Positions 1 through 34,143 of a stretch of 34,143 nt of DNA are shown here, piece by piece. The position numbers were made by a program, and so were the translations under genes. The notes beneath the pieces are model-generated. The model was not told the origin of the DNA. It saw only the letters and a list, made by a program, of their open reading frames with translations, and made no database searches. The stretch comes from a virus. The stretch spans positions 1 to 34,143 of the IMG/VR virus record IMGVR_UViG_3300009180_000012. One strand, written 5' to 3'. The stretch's first letter is position 1, and the number at the start of each line of letters is the position of its first letter.

Positions 1-118
1 ACCGAATGTTACCGTTATCACCATGGCGTATTCTTACCAGAAACGCGGCAGCCCTTGGTTCTTTATTCGTTTTAAAGACCCGACTGGAAAATGGCGTAGC
101 AAGAGCACCCGCTACCGA
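1..118. repeat. Terminal direct repeat, left copy (identical to 34026-34143)
   Basis: Bases 1-118 recur exactly at 34026-34143. The copy covers the integrase start codon (23) and its first 32 codons. The simplest reading is assembly overlap of a circular or circularly permuted genome, giving about 34,025 unique bases. True fixed terminal repeats are possible but less likely, because the repeat cuts through a gene. Confidence 0.95.
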
Positions 119-1123
119 ATCGAAAACACCCTGCATCGTGCGAAGGCAACGGCCGAGGCCGCTCGACTTGGAGTTAATGAAAAAAGAAAAGATTGCGGCC
201 ACGAATGGGTTGATGATTTGATTGAAAATCATCCCGTTTCTCCTCTGACAAAAGTTTATTACAGAAACTGCTGGCGTCATCTTGCGAGGTTTATTAATGA
301 AAAAAGAATAAGTCTGCAAGCGTTTTCTGCAAATGATTGTGAAATTTATTTGCGATGGCGCCAAAGCCTTTTCCGCACGTCCGGCGGTAAGGCTGGACGC
401 AACCAAGCGTGCCAAGATTTGAAGATTATCAAATGGATTCACAGGCAAGGTAGATTGCTTGGGAAAATGGATTCTGTTGCCCTTCTGGATTACCGAATTA
501 AAAAAGGCCCGATCGGCCGAGTTAAACCCGTTTTTTCTGATAATGAGATTAAGATCACCCGGAAAGCTCTCGCTGTGGATGGCGTGCCCGAATGGATGCG
601 AATCAGCTTTGAAATCGCCTTGGCTACGGGGTGCAGATTGCGTGAGACGCAGATTCCTCTGGATTGCGTGGACTTGAAGAACCGTGTGCTTACCTTCCCC
701 TGCCCCAAAGGTGGAACTGGCAAATCGTTTAGTATCCCTATCCCGGCCGCCATTGAACCCATGCTCGCCAAGATGAAGGCCGAGGGACGGGAGATCACCT
801 GCGAAGTCCCCCGCACGCGAGCCTCTCTTTGCTGGCGTAGGCTCTTGGATATTTGCGGTCTTAAACGTCACTGCTTCCACTCCCTTCGGGTAACCCGAGT
901 GACGAGACTGCGGCTTTCAGGCTGTTCTCAATCTGTCGCCATGAGACTCGTGAATCACTCGTCGACTTTAGTGCACGAGTTGTATCAGCGGCACTGCGTA
1001 GACGATCTCCGCGATGCTGTGAATTTAGGCCAGTCGTCCGTATCAGCCGCCAGCGATCAAAGTCAGACGGAATTACCTTACCCGCGATCAGTGGGAATCC
1101 AGGCATCGCCTGCATTTGCTTAA
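23..1123 (+). CDS. int: Tyrosine recombinase (phage integrase)
   Basis: Site-specific recombinase that would integrate the phage at a host tRNA gene and, with an excisionase, excise it. The 366-residue protein has an N-terminal arm-binding-like part (about 1-60), a SAM-like core-binding domain (about 62-150) and a catalytic domain (about 165-335). The catalytic set is visible: R205 in ATGCRLRE, a lysine near 229-234, H286 and R289 in FHSLR, H312 in VNHSS, and nucleophile Y321 in HELYQRH. It is one of only two plus-strand genes. The presumed attP lies about 90 bp upstream across the circle join. The 3' quarter is overlapped antisense by an excisionase-like gene. The roughly 45 residues after Y321 are longer than usual and coincide with that overlap. 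Confidence 0.95.
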   Translation: MAYSYQKRGSPWFFIRFKDPTGKWRSKSTRYRIENTLHRAKATAEAARLGVNEKRKDCGHEWVDDLIENHPVSPLTKVYYRNCWRHLARFINEKRISLQAFSANDCEIYLRWRQSLFRTSGGKAGRNQACQDLKIIKWIHRQGRLLGKMDSVALLDYRIKKGPIGRVKPVFSDNEIKITRKALAVDGVPEWMRISFEIALATGCRLRETQIPLDCVDLKNRVLTFPCPKGGTGKSFSIPIPAAIEPMLAKMKAEGREITCEVPRTRASLCWRRLLDICGLKRHCFHSLRVTRVTRLRLSGCSQSVAMRLVNHSSTLVHELYQRHCVDDLRDAVNLGQSSVSAASDQSQTELPYPRSVGIQASPAFA

Positions 1124-1229
1124 TTCTGACGTAACCTAACCCGTAAGCGGCGCCTAGTTGGCGAAGGGAAAGAGCTTGGTTCTGCTGACGCAGTTTCATG
1201 GAAATATCGTTGAGACGCCCCAAGCTCAT
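861..1229 (-). CDS. Excisionase-like small HTH protein, antisense to the integrase 3' end
   Basis: The 122-residue frame has a convincing N-terminal third (about 1-62). A helix-turn-helix-like stretch (LRQLGAAYGLGYVRIKQM, 22-39) is followed by GFPLIAGKVIPSDFDRW (44-60), the layout of MerR/excisionase-like domains where a short wing follows the recognition helix. It starts at ATG 1229, six bases after the stop of the RHH gene at 1236-1397, so the two look like one operon. The C-terminal half (about 65-122) is low in recognisable features and lies antisense to the integrase end (861-1123), so it may be read-through sequence shaped by the other strand. The role as directionality factor is inferred from fold and position. 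A transcriptional regulator is the main alternative. Confidence 0.5.
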   Translation of the reverse strand: MSLGRLNDISMKLRQQNQALSLRQLGAAYGLGYVRIKQMQAMPGFPLIAGKVIPSDFDRWRLIRTTGLNSQHRGDRLRSAADTTRALKSTSDSRVSWRQIENSLKAAVSSLGLPEGSGSSDV

Positions 1230-13581: not shown

Positions 13582-14196
13582 TCACCAGATCGGGCGAATG
13601 GACGGATCAAATGTGACCATGGTTTTACATCCAGCGCCACCATGCGGAAAGGTTGGGGTGTAGTGGTATCGCTTGACGCAATCAGGCCAAGTCATCGTGG
13701 CCTTTCCCCTGGCTGCCTTTGGAGTATCTACAGATCGATCGTTATCCTCGACAATAAAGGTGCAGGGTAGATCTGCCCCAGCCACATAGTTCACGGCCTC
13801 ATAAAAATGGCCCTCGTCCTCAGCTCCATCGCCCAAGAAGCACCACACCTTTGCCGAGCTTCCCTGCTCTTTTAATGTGTGCGCCACTCCGGCCGCTATC
13901 CCGCAAGTGCCAGCCAACACGCTTGACGTATAGAAATTGAGCTTACGGTCAAAGACAAACATGGAGCGACCATCTCTAATCATCTGCTCAAGCACGTCAG
14001 GATCTCCGCCAGAGAGCAGATAGTGATAGTGGGATCTGTGGCTTGAAAAGATCCAATCGCCTGGCTTGATGTCTTTAAATATCTCGATGAGCTGATCTTC
14101 ATTCCCCCCGCATAGGTGAATCAAATATGGCAGCTTGCCCTGTTCAAACAGCGCCTTAATGCGCAATTCAAAATCAATCAGATCCTGCTTGTTCAT
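13582..14196 (-). CDS. ThDP-dependent enzyme, PP-domain half (E1-alpha-like)
   Basis: A 204-residue protein resembling the alpha subunit of 2-oxoacid dehydrogenase E1 or transketolase-type enzymes. The thiamine diphosphate/Mg motif is GDGAEDEGH (122-130) followed by LPCTFIVEDN (143-152). Upstream, FSSHRSHYHYLLSGG (50-64) matches the conserved RxH segment near the active site, and AGTCGIAAGVAHTLK (95-109) the usual AAG stretch. Typical E1-alpha has 320-400 residues, so this is close to a bare PP domain, as in sulfopyruvate decarboxylase subunits. The partner half is at 15281-15799, with the radical SAM gene between. It starts ATGA-coupled to that gene. The reaction (decarboxylation or two-carbon transfer) is unknown. 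Confidence 0.8.
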   Translation of the reverse strand: MNKQDLIDFELRIKALFEQGKLPYLIHLCGGNEDQLIEIFKDIKPGDWIFSSHRSHYHYLLSGGDPDVLEQMIRDGRSMFVFDRKLNFYTSSVLAGTCGIAAGVAHTLKEQGSSAKVWCFLGDGAEDEGHFYEAVNYVAGADLPCTFIVEDNDRSVDTPKAARGKATMTWPDCVKRYHYTPTFPHGGAGCKTMVTFDPSIRPIW

Positions 14197-15287
14197 ACAA
14201 AGGCGTCGTGACTATCGGTGGCCAGCTTTTCAAACAGCGCCACCTTGGCGTGATTGGCGCATTCATGCAGACAGCTGACGCCAGGGTTAAAGTTTTTATG
14301 CCATGCTCTCGCCTCTTCTCCGAACCATGCCTGGCTAAATGATTGATCCTTCATTGAGGCGATGCGGCCGTGATTGCTGTATGCGGTATTGTGGCATGCG
14401 TAGATATTAAGATCTGCACCTACCACGCAAACGGCCTGAGCGTAAAGACAGCGATGGAATGGCCGAACGGGCGACTTGCTTGGACTATCCAGATCGTAGG
14501 TCGTGTTAATGGTAAAATCTGAATTACAAAAGGATTGGCACTCGGCTAGTTGCTCCCTCACCCTGGTCGCAATCGTGTTGTGATATTCTTTAAAGTTCTG
14601 CACGTACACGGGAGAGAAGCGGACATTACTTACGCCCGCATCCTTAAGCTGTTTAGCAAATGGAACCAACCCCTCGTAATTATAGCGGGTAATAATAAAG
14701 TTAATTCCAAGATCACAGCTTTCCGTTTTGGTATTTGAAAAGTTTTTTATGTTTTGCATCACCGAATCGAACGATCTGTCGGGCACGTTACGACTCGACG
14801 CCATCTGCTCTGCGCTTGTGTAGTCCATAGAAATCCTGACCCATTTTGCCTTGCCCAATACTTCCGCCCTTTCCCCCGCAAGGAGTTGGCCGTTGGTAAT
14901 AATGGATAGATCCAGCCCAGACGAAACTGTCTTAGTCATAATCTCGACAATGTCTTTATGCAGTAAAGGCTCTCCGCCGCCGCTGAAGGTGACGGCTTTT
15001 GTTCCCATGTTTGAAAGATCCTCTATTAGTTCTAGTGCCTTATCTCGTGGCATCACGTCCCGCTCGTTCATGCTGGTGTGCATGCCAGCCTGTAGGTGCA
15101 AGTCAGGCCGATCCTTGGGCCGAGTTGTGCCGTCAGAATAAACGCAGAAACGGCAGGCGTGGTTACAGATATTCGTCGGTTTAATCCGCACGTAGATGGG
15201 TGCGGTGATAATATCGTCGCGAAAGCTGGCGATCTTATCAGGGAACGAAAAGATTTTGAGGTCGCTGTACTTGTTCTGCTTCACCAC
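14193..15287 (-). CDS. Radical SAM enzyme with SPASM-like C-terminus
   Basis: A 364-residue protein with the cluster-binding motif CNHACRFC (Cys41, 45, 48; CX3CX2C), the SAM-binding SGGGEPLLH (102-110), and a C-terminal Cys-rich part (Cys280, 287, 298, 339, 343). The latter suits one or more auxiliary iron-sulfur clusters, as in SPASM/twitch enzymes. Such enzymes perform radical chemistry on peptides, sugars and cofactors. The gene overlaps the ThDP beta-like gene by 7 bases and the alpha-like gene by 4. In this company a sugar or small-molecule step is more likely than peptide maturation, and no precursor-peptide gene was seen nearby. Oxygen sensitivity hints at a host living with low oxygen, but weakly. 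Confidence 0.88.
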   Translation of the reverse strand: MVKQNKYSDLKIFSFPDKIASFRDDIITAPIYVRIKPTNICNHACRFCVYSDGTTRPKDRPDLHLQAGMHTSMNERDVMPRDKALELIEDLSNMGTKAVTFSGGGEPLLHKDIVEIMTKTVSSGLDLSIITNGQLLAGERAEVLGKAKWVRISMDYTSAEQMASSRNVPDRSFDSVMQNIKNFSNTKTESCDLGINFIITRYNYEGLVPFAKQLKDAGVSNVRFSPVYVQNFKEYHNTIATRVREQLAECQSFCNSDFTINTTYDLDSPSKSPVRPFHRCLYAQAVCVVGADLNIYACHNTAYSNHGRIASMKDQSFSQAWFGEEARAWHKNFNPGVSCLHECANHAKVALFEKLATDSHDAFV

Positions 15288-15799
15288 TCATCCTTTCGCT
15301 CGACCAGCATAGTGGATGTCCCAGCGCTCAATCTGTGCAATGCGTTTTGATATTCGCTCACTACGCTTTCCTTCTTTAGTTCTACGATTGGGAAATCGAT
15401 CATTTTTCTAAGAGCTTCGGTAAAGTCCTGCGTATGGGTTGGCCCCGTGTAGAGCGGTTTATTTTTGTTGCCTATGACTACCCGCAAGATGGCGGCAGGC
15501 TTGAATTGATTGCAGCTAATGTGCTGAGCTGCGCCTAGGTGATTCACGATGGCGTCCAGTGCATTGAGAATAAAATCCATCCGCTCAATAAATACGACGG
15601 GTTTTAGCCCGGCTAAACTCAGGCCCGCGGCTAATCCTACCATCAGATTTTCAGCAACAGGCGTTTCGATCAGTTGAGAATCCGCAACATTATTGAGCGT
15701 GCCTGCCGCCCGCCCGCCTATCTTTACCCCGTAGCCTATAAACCTGACGGCCGGATCAGCCGCTAATAAATCCATTGCTTGAGTCAGCTCCTTCTTCAC
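15281..15799 (-). CDS. ThDP-dependent enzyme, PYR-domain half (E1-beta-like, no C-terminal domain)
   Basis: A 172-residue protein matching the pyrimidine-binding domain of E1-beta or transketolase. ETPVAENLMVGLAAGLSLAG (45-64) carries the conserved catalytic Glu (Glu50). LKPVVFIERMDFILNALDAI (65-84) is the E1-beta pattern, with THTQDFTEALRK (121-132) at the place of the usual HSQ. Normal E1-beta (about 325 residues) has an extra transketolase C-terminal domain, which is absent here. With the alpha-like half it would form a minimal alpha2beta2-type enzyme. It starts overlapping the GT9-like gene by four bases. Confidence 0.8.
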   Translation of the reverse strand: MKKELTQAMDLLAADPAVRFIGYGVKIGGRAAGTLNNVADSQLIETPVAENLMVGLAAGLSLAGLKPVVFIERMDFILNALDAIVNHLGAAQHISCNQFKPAAILRVVIGNKNKPLYTGPTHTQDFTEALRKMIDFPIVELKKESVVSEYQNALHRLSAGTSTMLVERKDEW

Positions 15800-16560
15800 A
15801 GTAAGCCTTCTTCTTCAAGAATGTGCAGGGCGTGAAATGCGCTCCTAGCCATCTGACCGCGTTCGGTAAATATGACTGTCTCGGTATCTGCACACAGCAA
15901 ATGGAAGGCATTTTTGTTGTGAACGTTTAGGCACGGCCAGCTCGGCCCGGTGGATGTTCCGATGACGGCTTTTGCCTTGGCGGCCGTCGCCCCTATCCAA
16001 GTCACATTCTTGTTATCAAATGCCGGGCATAATCCAGTATCGACTGTGCTGATTACCCGATGGCCCTTGCTAACTAGTTTAGATACTAGGTTGCGAAAGT
16101 CGTCGGGGTTAAAGTTTATAAATTGTCCAGAAAGCCCTGGCGAATTTATGACGACGACGTCGCAGTCTGGCGCCATCGGAATAAAAGAATCTAAAGCCGG
16201 ATAGTCAAACAGGAGGTCATCGACTTCCCGAATTGGATTTTTTACGCACATCCTGCTGGCCAGTTCCTCAAACCAACATAGATGAAATTTGGCGAAGTTT
16301 AATTTATCGAGATGACGCTCCCAATATCCGCCTGCATTACGCCAAGAATCAATGCTATCGGCTGGTGCCTCGCTGATTGGTCGAATGTGTAGCCGTAAAG
16401 ACATGTCGCTACGCAAGGCATCAATCTCCTCAAACTTGCACAGCTCTGGATTGTGATAGTGCGTGATCTCAATATCTGAATTTTGCAGGCATAGCCGACG
16501 TAGAAAGTTTAACTGCACCAGGTTGTCGCCTAGCCGCAGTGCATTGTGGGCATGAATCAC
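15796..16560 (-). CDS. GT-B/GT9-like glycosyltransferase-related protein
   Basis: The 254-residue protein starts MIHAHNALRLGDNLVQLNFL, close to the GLGD-type loop that opens heptosyltransferase (GT9) proteins. A C-terminal nucleotide-sugar-like half has VVVINSPGLSGQF, KGHRVISTVDTG and AVIGTSTGPSWPCLNV, matching the GT9 GxxTGxxH-type donor site except that the final His is replaced. It is shorter than typical GT9 enzymes (about 340), so the N-terminal acceptor domain is reduced. A sugar transfer role is inferred; a non-catalytic relative is possible. It is coupled by 4-base overlaps to the genes on both sides. Confidence 0.6.
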   Translation of the reverse strand: MIHAHNALRLGDNLVQLNFLRRLCLQNSDIEITHYHNPELCKFEEIDALRSDMSLRLHIRPISEAPADSIDSWRNAGGYWERHLDKLNFAKFHLCWFEELASRMCVKNPIREVDDLLFDYPALDSFIPMAPDCDVVVINSPGLSGQFINFNPDDFRNLVSKLVSKGHRVISTVDTGLCPAFDNKNVTWIGATAAKAKAVIGTSTGPSWPCLNVHNKNAFHLLCADTETVIFTERGQMARSAFHALHILEEEGLL

Positions 16561-18242
16561 GGGTTGCGTTCCTTAAATATCTTTTCGCCCAGCTCGTAGT
16601 TCTCCTTGGCGTTGTGGCGCTTAAATTCCGCGTCCTGAGCTGCGCCCGTGAAGAGCGGATTGTTGTGGGTAAAGACGATATCCTTGGCGGGAATGATGAC
16701 GCCATCGTATGCAGCCCTTTTGGAAAATTCGTTATCTGAGAATATGCCAGAGCAAGCGTCATATTCGGCGGCAAACATGGCGCCCTGATCTTGCAGTCGT
16801 GCTTTAGTTAGGATTGCCATGCACAGCAGATCGTCTTTGCGATGGCCGTCGGAAATCGCCAGTACCTTGGGCTTGCTGGTATCGCCAATTCTGTCGCTGA
16901 TTATCTTGTCCCAATGCAGCGGAGGGTCCCAATCGTCGGAGCCTTGAATGATAATTTCACCGCGGGCTACTTCGGCCGCCCTGTTCCAAGCCGCAATACA
17001 CCCGCCCTTACCTTTAACAATTCCCCAATTTTTAAGCATGTCGGCTTTAGGATCGTCATCATCGACCGAGTAGATCCACTCGACTGACGCTGGATCTGCC
17101 GCCTTTTTCATCCACAAGATGCGGGCGTTGATCGCTTCTTGCGGGCGGCCTCGGGTGGCGTGGCAAACGGTAATCTTTACCGGCTTCTGCGCCCGCCACA
17201 TGTTCTCAATCTTTTCTGCCTCGGCCGTATCGCCGACGGCTTTGCAGGCCGCTAGGTATAGATCTATGCACTCAAAGTCGTAGACGGTGCGCTGGGCGTT
17301 CCAGATCTTTACGCCCGGATCGGGCTGAACCATCGCAGACTTAAGCAAGTGGTAAGCCTGCAACCACGCACCCACGCTCGCCTCCTCCCTAGCTAAATAG
17401 TAAATCGCTTCCCTGCGCCCAGGGTTCATTTGATGTGCCTTTTGGTATAGGCCGATCCTGACCGTGCGATCTTGCGTGGCCGTGGCCTGATTACAGGCCG
17501 CCTCGTAAGCCAGCGTGGCCTCTTGCCCCGGCCAGACGGCCGCAACGTGTGACCAAGGCTCAGATTCCGTCCTGCGATTGCCTAGGAAAAGTTCCTGCTG
17601 GTAGTAGTACGCATACTTGCCCGCCTCGCTTAACTGGCCTTGCAAGATGCGGAGATTGCGATCGGCGCTACCCGCCTTGTAACCACCCGGGTGATGCTCA
17701 ACCCATACCGTCTGCTCGCCCACAGATTCTAGCCCAGCATTAGGCAACAGCGCCTCATGGACGGCGTAGTGCCACTTTCCAGACCATGCGCCGTCTATAC
17801 GCCTTACCATCCGTTCCCTTACAGGGGCGAGTTTGGCGTTTAAAACCGCATATACGCCTGCATAGATGCCGAGCTTGGGATTCTGCTCAAACGCTTCCAC
17901 GCCCCTTTTAAGAGCGTTTTTGAGGTCTTTATGTGGCAAGTCATCGCAATCCACCCATACCGCATATTCACTAGTGCAGGCATCCAGTGCGGTGTTGCGG
18001 GCAGCGGCAAAGTTATCGACGTGAGGCCAGCTCGCCCCTGCCGGTGCGTTTTTATATTCAACTATCTTTGCCCCTGACTTTTCAGCGATCGCCCGAGTAC
18101 CGTCGTCAGGTCGGCCCCCCTGGGCAATGCAGACCACTAGCTCGTCGCAGAATGGTTTAAAGGCGGTAAGGCAGCGGTCGATAAATTGGGCCTCGTGCCC
18201 GGCGATCATGTAGATGGAGATTTTAGGATTTCGAGTGGCCAT
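16557..18242 (-). CDS. Two-domain family 2 glycosyltransferase (GT2-TPR-GT2)
   Basis: The start at ATG 18242 is chosen because it lies one base after the connector stop. The longer in-frame version (from 18338) would run through the connector gene. The 561-residue protein begins with a GT-A domain (about 7-200): ISIYMIAGHEAQFIDRC, DELVVCIAQG, NFAAARNTALDACTSEYAVW and the DxD motif VDCDD (97-101). A helical, TPR-like middle follows (about 240-350). A second GT-A-like domain (355-540) has ITVCHATRGRPQ, VEWIYSVDDDDPKAD (387-401) and IIIQGSDDWDPP (430-441). It could make or attach two sugars in turn. As first gene of the cassette it likely does the final attachment to a protein or lipid acceptor; that is inference. 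Confidence 0.82.
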   Translation of the reverse strand: MATRNPKISIYMIAGHEAQFIDRCLTAFKPFCDELVVCIAQGGRPDDGTRAIAEKSGAKIVEYKNAPAGASWPHVDNFAAARNTALDACTSEYAVWVDCDDLPHKDLKNALKRGVEAFEQNPKLGIYAGVYAVLNAKLAPVRERMVRRIDGAWSGKWHYAVHEALLPNAGLESVGEQTVWVEHHPGGYKAGSADRNLRILQGQLSEAGKYAYYYQQELFLGNRRTESEPWSHVAAVWPGQEATLAYEAACNQATATQDRTVRIGLYQKAHQMNPGRREAIYYLAREEASVGAWLQAYHLLKSAMVQPDPGVKIWNAQRTVYDFECIDLYLAACKAVGDTAEAEKIENMWRAQKPVKITVCHATRGRPQEAINARILWMKKAADPASVEWIYSVDDDDPKADMLKNWGIVKGKGGCIAAWNRAAEVARGEIIIQGSDDWDPPLHWDKIISDRIGDTSKPKVLAISDGHRKDDLLCMAILTKARLQDQGAMFAAEYDACSGIFSDNEFSKRAAYDGVIIPAKDIVFTHNNPLFTGAAQDAEFKRHNAKENYELGEKIFKERNP

Positions 18243-18243
18243 T

Positions 18244-18543
18244 CTAAACCTCTCGCAACCCGAGCACGTAACTACCGATAGAAGTATCAATCGACGCCAC
18301 CCGATAGCTGACCGAGTTGGCCAGCAAGATAGATCCAATGGTAGGCGCCGATGAGATGGCGCTCACGTCGATGGTAAAGGTGGAGTTTAGATCCAGATCA
18401 AATCCGCCCAGCTCCACGGTTTCTTTGCGGGTGATCGTCGAAAGGATGCCAGTAACGCCAGTAGAACCAATGGTGGCCGCTGTGCCAGTTTGAGTATAAA
18501 GAGCGGCCAGACTTTCTTTTAACGCTTCCGTGAATTCAGACAT
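18244..18543 (-). CDS. Head-tail connector protein
   Basis: A 99-residue protein: helix at the start (EFTEALKESLAALYTQ), then strand-rich sequence with VELGGFDLDLNSTFTIDVSA and SYRVASIDTSIGSYVLGLRE. This resembles small head-tail joining proteins (gpFII-like) that form the ring under the portal. Its location between the major capsid and the tail terminator fits, and the accessory cassette begins one base downstream. Confidence 0.6.
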   Translation of the reverse strand: MSEFTEALKESLAALYTQTGTAATIGSTGVTGILSTITRKETVELGGFDLDLNSTFTIDVSAISSAPTIGSILLANSVSYRVASIDTSIGSYVLGLREV

Positions 18544-33588: not shown

Positions 33589-33743
33589 AGATCCCCAAAA
33601 GTTTTGCGGATCTGATCGATGACCCACCCAAAGACGAGTACGGCTACTGTTAGCCCAGCGATTCCAGAGCCTACAAACAGCGCCCAACCGGTAATCAGCA
33701 TGGATACCTGGGCAAGATCCCGCATAACTTCCCACGAGATCAT
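33585..33743 (-). CDS. Small membrane protein, 52 residues
   Basis: ATG 33743 overlaps the upstream stop (ATGA), so it is preferred over an in-frame ATG at 33779. One long hydrophobic segment (VSMLITGWALFVGSGIAGLT, then VAVLVFGWVI) is probably two short or one long membrane helix, with a basic end. It resembles small holin-like or membrane-signalling peptides. Its location in the early operon argues against a lysis role. Confidence 0.5.
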   Translation of the reverse strand: MISWEVMRDLAQVSMLITGWALFVGSGIAGLTVAVLVFGWVIDQIRKTFGDL

Positions 33744-33955
33744 TTGCTGGCCTCGTGCTGGGCGTGCCACATACGGCACACGGCGGGGTTAGGGTGATAA
33801 ACGAACGCTTCGGGCGTTAAATCGTATCCGCCCCGCGAATTTAAATTTAGTTGTTGGTAGTGAGCCTTTTTAGGCTCAGTTATTACTGCCGTGTTACCAT
33901 TTCGGCGTAAGTCGTTATAGTGATAAGTATCGGACGGGGTGGGATTTGAACCCAC
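33740..33955 (-). CDS. First gene of the leftward operon; starts inside the attP tRNA fragment
   Basis: GTG 33955 is preceded by AAGGAG at an 8-base spacing, the best start; an ATG at 34003 is possible. The first residues, VGSNPTPSD, are encoded by the tRNA T-arm and acceptor sequence. The likely functional part is the end: GGYDLTPEAFVYHPNPAVCR then MWHAQHEASK, which has a Cys/His-containing look. It ends overlapping the membrane protein start. Integration at attP would separate the gene from its ribosome-binding site. Confidence 0.45.
   Translation of the reverse strand: MGSNPTPSDTYHYNDLRRNGNTAVITEPKKAHYQQLNLNSRGGYDLTPEAFVYHPNPAVCRMWHAQHEASK
33861..33878. terminator. Perfect hairpin TGAGCC-TTTTTA-GGCTCA
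   Basis: A 6-bp perfect inverted repeat within the first leftward gene, 53-70 bases downstream (minus strand) of the tRNA fragment. There is no U-tract on the minus transcript, and on the plus side only GTTATTA follows. In a lysogen it would lie just after the restored host tRNA gene and might limit read-through; that is inference. Confidence 0.3.
33892..33901 (+). repeat. TGTTACCRTT direct repeat near attP, left copy
   Basis: TGTTACCATT here and TGTTACCGTT at 34032-34041 flank the attP core on the same strand. They could be integrase arm-binding sites, but the match is only 9 of 10 and could be chance. Confidence 0.25.
33931..33955 (-). other. attP core candidate: 3' end of a tRNA gene
   Basis: On the minus strand the T-stem GTGGG (33955-33951), loop TTCAAAT, stem CCCAC, acceptor strand CCCGTCC and discriminator G (33931) form a perfect tRNA 3' end. 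No matching 5' acceptor (GGACGGG) or anticodon arm lies upstream, so this is a fragment, not a gene. Discriminator G plus the CCGTGGGTTCAAATCCCAC pattern favours tRNA-Ser, though other G-ending tRNAs are possible. It lies about 90 bp upstream of the integrase start around the circle, the usual place for attP. Confidence 0.78.
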
Positions 33956-34025
33956 GGTTCTATCTCCTTCTTTGATTTGATTGATTATGCTTGGCACGTT
34001 CATTGTATATTATTGCGTTTAACTG

Positions 34026-34143
34026 ACCGAATGTTACCGTTATCACCATGGCGTATTCTTACCAGAAACGCGGCAGCCCTTGGTTCTTTATTCGTTTTAA
34101 AGACCCGACTGGAAAATGGCGTAGCAAGAGCACCCGCTACCGA
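34026..34143. repeat. Terminal direct repeat, right copy
   Basis: Identical to 1-118. It contains the integrase start at 34048 and its first 32 codons. The gap 33956-34047 before it holds the integrase upstream region; no convincing promoter was identified there. Confidence 0.95.
34048..34143 (+). CDS. int: Integrase, partial duplicate of the start of the gene at 23
   Basis: The first 32 codons of the tyrosine recombinase recur at the right edge because the contig overlaps itself. It is not a second integrase. Annotated so that the true upstream region of the gene (33956-34047) is visible. Confidence 0.9.
   Translation, partial: MAYSYQKRGSPWFFIRFKDPTGKWRSKSTRYR

Follow-up and report, generated by a model that had tools for sequence, protein, structure and literature searches.

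A phage attachment core most likely located within the first gene of the leftward block, and the predicted effect of integration on that gene

In the DNA analyzed here (34,143 nucleotides of the virus record IMGVR_UViG_3300009180_000012, hereafter the window), the 3' end of a host tRNA gene lies where a long block of leftward genes begins. What would integration at this site do to the first gene of the block (gene 1) and to the genes behind it? The original prediction was that the tRNA end contains the GTG start codon of gene 1, and that integration would exchange the 5' region of the block for a host tRNA gene and might switch the block off or place it under the tRNA promoter.

Genome layout and the attachment core

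The record carries a 118-bp direct terminal repeat and therefore corresponds to a circle of 34,025 bp. The sole rightward gene with an assigned function in the window encodes a tyrosine integrase, which matched PHROG 1 (E = 2.7e-28) and Pfam PF00589 above its cut-off. This gene adjoins attP, its ATG at 34048 lying 90 bp from the core (Table 1). The leftward block is nearly the whole genome and gene 1 is its first gene; leftward genes with an assignable function encode an exonuclease, a primase-helicase, a terminase, a portal protein and an endolysin. About half of the leftward genes lacked an SD motif in a simple test of the window's genes. A near-DNA search of phage records revealed no relatives, and searches of phage and plasmid records with the integrase protein gave no matches. 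The window probably represents a temperate, tailed phage of Verrucomicrobia subdivision 6, and this assignment is part of our best overall explanation of the locus. The small ORF that ends the leftward block had no family match and, by its position and appearance, is possibly an excision factor. By eye, metabolic-looking cargo was seen among the structural genes at 13582-18338, namely a radical SAM protein, two thiamine-enzyme-like proteins and a glycosyltransferase-like protein.

Table 1. Features of the attP region and the adjoining genes, with their occurrence or basis.
Feature	Position	Strand	Occurrence or basis
Complete copy of the tyrosine integrase gene (366 aa), at the opposite end of the linear record	23..1123	+	
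Small ORF, last leftward gene, opposite the 3' end of the integrase gene	861..1229	-	L155 and L170 have similar ORFs in this position
Gene 1, 87 aa, ATG at 34003, frame runs through the core	33740..34003	-	70/70 distinct relatives
Left arm-like repeat of attP, TGTTACCATT	33892..33901	+	repeat D3
attP core, 29 bp, T-arm and acceptor of the 3' end of host tRNA-Ser(CGA)	33930..33958	-	identical in Verrucomicrobia subdivision 6 genomes
GTG in the core, possible second start only	33953..33955	-	GGG in L066, L069, L073, L078 and L100
AAGGAG, ribosome-site-like, within the gene 1 frame	33964..33969	-	SD-like motif here in 40/70 distinct relatives
CATAAT, conserved -10-like hexamer, conserved -35 not seen	33984..33989	-	column counts, junction list
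Right arm-like repeat of attP, TGTTACCGTT	34032..34041	+	repeat D3
5' part of the tyrosine integrase gene, which runs on as 23-1123 over the circle closure	34048..34143	+	118-bp terminal repeat

When the 25-base inner part of the core was scanned in bacterial genomes, 35 places were found, among which Verrucomicrobia subdivision 6 formed the largest group. ARAGORN called tRNA-Ser(CGA) at the subdivision 6 sites, and identity to the phage extended to 29 bp (ACCGTGGGTTCAAATCCCACCCCGTCCGA, minus strand 33958-33930). An exact 29-mer with phage-side bases had no match in bacterial genomes because sequence outside the core is specific to the phage. A further 31 virus contigs contained the exact 29-mer of 33932-33960 in the same setting, and its recurrence is therefore far beyond chance. 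Further, the tRNA end occupied a constant place between gene 1 and the integrase gene in 104 locus records, which represent 71 distinct junction sequences as some contigs were fetched twice. The end was that of tRNA-Met of the same host clade in five relatives (those with GGG in Table 1) and that of tRNA-Pro of this clade in one (L080); the tRNA target had been swapped between relatives and the gene 1 frame retained. We concluded that the tRNA 3' end at 33930-33958 is real and is the attachment core, in agreement with the original prediction.

The window contained no tRNA gene, and none of the scanned contigs of relatives yielded a complete tRNA. A search of virus contigs for the complete host tRNA pattern yielded three matches, all of which were unrelated elements. 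The arm-like repeats share the motif GTTAC, which was found at the left-arm offset in 50 of the 71 distinct junctions and at about the right-arm offset in essentially all of them, most junctions having been selected with a pattern that includes GTTAC. Verrucomicrobia subdivision 6 is the likely host, judging from the tRNA identity and from binned contigs; an unintegrated relative, L155, was binned in the same order as the tRNA-matching hosts.

Start codon and reading frame of gene 1

As originally described, the GTG at 33955-33953 lies within the tRNA end, and AAGGAG (33969-33964) is located just outside it on the integrase side. If gene 1 started at this GTG, integration would exchange only its ribosome site and promoter for tRNA sequence. 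Such a start is suggested by the AAGGAG, which precedes the GTG by 8 nt in the window, by the presence of GTG in 65 of 70 distinct relatives and of an SD-like motif before the GTG position in 40, and by the conserved CATAAT upstream. Further, purifying selection was not seen in the residues before the GTG (pN/pS of 0.87 before the core, without codon-position bias). However, the five relatives of the tRNA-Met type have GGG instead and lack any alternative canonical start ahead of the conserved part, the SD-like motif is missing in 30 of the 70, and an upstream start with an open frame is kept in every one of them. A GTG start as a family-wide feature was rejected, and we regard it as quite improbable that gene 1 begins at this codon. 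A second start at the GTG position is possible in the 40 relatives with the SD-like motif, including the window. CATAAT was not found in the diverged relative L094 and might represent a -10-like element.

An in-frame ATG or GTG was present 14-16 codons upstream of the GTG position in 70 of 70 distinct relatives, either as ATG or GTG at codon -16 or else as ATG at codon -14. The gene 1 frame upstream of the GTG contained no stop in any of these relatives, and the other two frames were stopped in 68-70 of them. About 190 changes were inferred in this upstream part and none had created an in-frame stop (rough expectation, P = 7e-4, a value that takes the changes as independent and is indicative only). 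The ATG of the window is not preceded by an SD motif. In L094, the upstream sequence of which has diverged, an ATG is kept at the same distance; in L155, a GTG with an SD motif is located at nearly the same distance and the frame runs through the core. These results suggest that the GTG start of the original prediction is probably wrong and favor the ATG located 48 nt upstream of it. Because the start lies 14-16 codons outside in all 70 relatives and the GTG is missing in five, the attP core is most likely located within gene 1, not at its start. With the ATG start, it follows that integration would truncate gene 1 and not merely exchange its ribosome site.

The part of gene 1 after the core is clearly coding by its substitution pattern, with a pN/pS of 0.46 in the gene 1 frame and values above 1.0 in the other two frames. 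We asked whether the frame through the tRNA end could nevertheless be a by-product, in which case gene 1 would be decaying or dispensable and the position of attP would have no regulatory meaning. T-arm sequences do not contain stops in the gene 1 frame, and gene 1 is small and had no Pfam or PHROG match. Its predicted structure was of low confidence (mean pLDDT, 53) and mostly unstructured, with one C-terminal helix; no helix-turn-helix was seen in this low-confidence model, and a missing match does not disprove a repressor function. Further, the gene at this place in L155 is in another frame and encodes a mostly different protein. In contrast to what a by-product would suggest, purifying selection acts after the core, invariant residues are found across the 27 aligned members, and the start and the frame are kept in 70 of 70 relatives. 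We therefore consider this explanation unlikely.

Integration geometry and related prophages

When the host and phage sequences were joined in silico, ARAGORN called an intact tRNA-Ser(CGA) where the leftward genes meet host DNA. The predicted attL consists of the host tRNA-Ser(CGA) followed by GATACTTATCACTATAACG, that is, the rest of gene 1 comes after the tRNA, and its sole in-frame start is the GTG within the tRNA. At the in-silico attR, on the integrase end, the 5' part of gene 1 is left as a 30-aa remnant. We consider it probable that the core lies within gene 1 and that integration splits this gene and sets the leftward block behind a rebuilt tRNA. Of the geometry originally proposed, the placement of the leftward genes behind an intact tRNA was supported by the in-silico junction and by the related prophages described below, whereas the detail of the start codon was not.

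In our model, the tyrosine integrase would target a host tRNA gene at its 3' end, this gene being tRNA-Ser(CGA) for the window and tRNA-Met or tRNA-Pro for relatives. In the circular phage, gene 1 would be read from the ATG about 46 nt to the integrase side of the core and through the tRNA end. Integration would rebuild the tRNA at one end of the prophage and place the leftward block directly behind it, and the block would lose the start of gene 1 together with any promoter between gene 1 and the integrase gene. The start and the first codons of gene 1 would remain at the integrase end and could give rise to a peptide of about 30 aa. We infer that gene 1 is used solely in the non-integrated stage, and the leftward block would be silent or weakly read in the lysogen. 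When the tRNA 3' end is matured, cleavage would fall inside what is left of the gene 1 start region.

An early promoter downstream of 33930 had been named beforehand as an observation against the prediction; promoter-like sites in this region (left of 33930) were not above chance. The best candidate for the promoter itself, at 34037-34009 on the minus strand between the integrase gene and gene 1, was also at chance level and was rejected.

No integrated copy of the window's group was found in 62 host-order genomes with integrase and gene 1 queries, and a search with the integrase, at a strict threshold, of a sample of 388 genomes from the phylum revealed no lysogen of this group. The C-terminus of gene 1 gave only chance-level matches in host-order genomes, and every readable junction of the family was an unintegrated attP. 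Virus collections often trim host DNA, and because of this the lack of host junctions in them is weak evidence.

Distantly related integrases were found in integrated elements of G055 (at tRNA-Phe), G017 (at tRNA-Gly) and G046 (at tRNA-Gly). In these elements a partial tRNA end is located roughly 100-140 bp before the integrase gene, and the complete tRNA lies at the far end from it, at a distance of 36.3 kb in G055, 46.7 kb in G017 (a span composed of two elements in tandem) and 3.6 kb in G046. The proposed inspection of prophage boundaries thus revealed the predicted layout in prophages of distantly related integrases and no prophage of the window's group. The G055 prophage and the window have capsid-, portal- and terminase-like proteins in common. 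The first gene of G055 has its own SD motif and starts downstream of the core, and the overlap of gene and core is therefore not general for this type of integrase.

Further arrangements were observed at tRNA genes. The two tandem elements of G017 (C40:116170-162950, L170-L172) share one tRNA-Gly and have a tRNA end between them. The 3.6-kb element at L156:6572-10290 is integrated at tRNA-Gly, has a related integrase and, by eye, encodes a rolling-circle-type replication protein with an H-x-H motif. In L111, L116, L117, L125 and L136, the same tRNA-Ser(CGA) is followed by a different sequence with GTGACAG repeats, which is probably another family of integrated elements that uses this tRNA.

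A hairpin was seen directly after the host tRNA-Ser (L113, L120, L124 and L127) and after tRNA-Pro (L201, L202 and L204). It reuses the 3' strand of the acceptor, CCCCGTCC pairing with GGACGGGG and, similarly, CCGCTC with GAGCGG. The tRNA-Ser hairpin has a predicted energy of about -19 to -23 kcal/mol and no T-run.

Expression of the leftward block and comparison with known systems

Instead of being silenced, the block could be transcribed from the tRNA promoter once the phage has integrated, giving a lysogenic transcript. It is co-directional with the tRNA, and the strong hairpin of the host tRNA-Ser is missing at the in-silico attL, so that integration would take this hairpin away from the tRNA. 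However, the hairpin has no T-run, which weakens this point, and the host would be expected to suffer if genes for replication, structure and lysis were read constantly. It appears doubtful that the block is expressed in this way. The preferred reading, in which gene 1 is split and the block is silent or nearly so, can be extended to a lysogeny switch that operates without a dedicated repressor: integration would cut the leftward block from its promoter and first gene, the block would be silenced by DNA rearrangement, and the arrangement would be kept across changes of the tRNA target. This extension is speculative and, in our judgment, rather unlikely to hold in full. If true, the disconnected block would comprise replication, structure and lysis, with the possible excision factor as its last gene, and integration at attP could act as a simple on/off switch.

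Integration-dependent immunity has been described in mycobacteriophage BPs and in clusters G, I, N and P, in which attP is located within the repressor gene, and integration removes the 3' end of this gene and yields a shorter, active repressor (PMC4557955). The window's phage may follow a similar principle, since in both cases attP lies within a phage ORF that integration truncates (here, the frame runs through the core in 70 of 70 relatives). In contrast to the BPs type, integration would here remove the 5' end of a small gene and would inactivate gene 1, and the rest of the leftward block would gain a new upstream neighbor. Because gene 1 is not a recognizable repressor (no Pfam or PHROG match and no helix-turn-helix in the low-confidence model) and the predicted truncation is not at its 3' end, we do not assign the window's phage to the BPs type.

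In tRNA-dependent lysogeny, phage and host share a short core of 8-11 bp, and a tRNA gene carried by the phage makes up for the loss of the host tRNA (PMC10865867). The window's phage has in common with this system a tyrosine integrase, a predicted attB that overlaps a host tRNA and a life cycle that would be tied to the site. It differs by a 29-bp core, by a host tRNA that is rebuilt in silico and by a phage genome without a tRNA gene, and tRNA-dependent lysogeny was rejected for the window's phage on the last two points. The G055 type of ordinary prophage is similar to the predicted prophage in that the complete tRNA lies away from the integrase gene and the integrase points inward; unlike here, integration leaves its first gene uncut.

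In the literature that we compared, the phage genes reported to be altered by integration are repressor genes of actinobacterial phages. If the switch proposed here is true, integration would be coupled to gene control by a second, apparently unrelated arrangement, in which attP lies in the 5' coding region of gene 1, at the head of the leftward block, and stays there when the tRNA target changes. The proposal yields a clear prediction that can be tested in phages of uncultured Verrucomicrobia.
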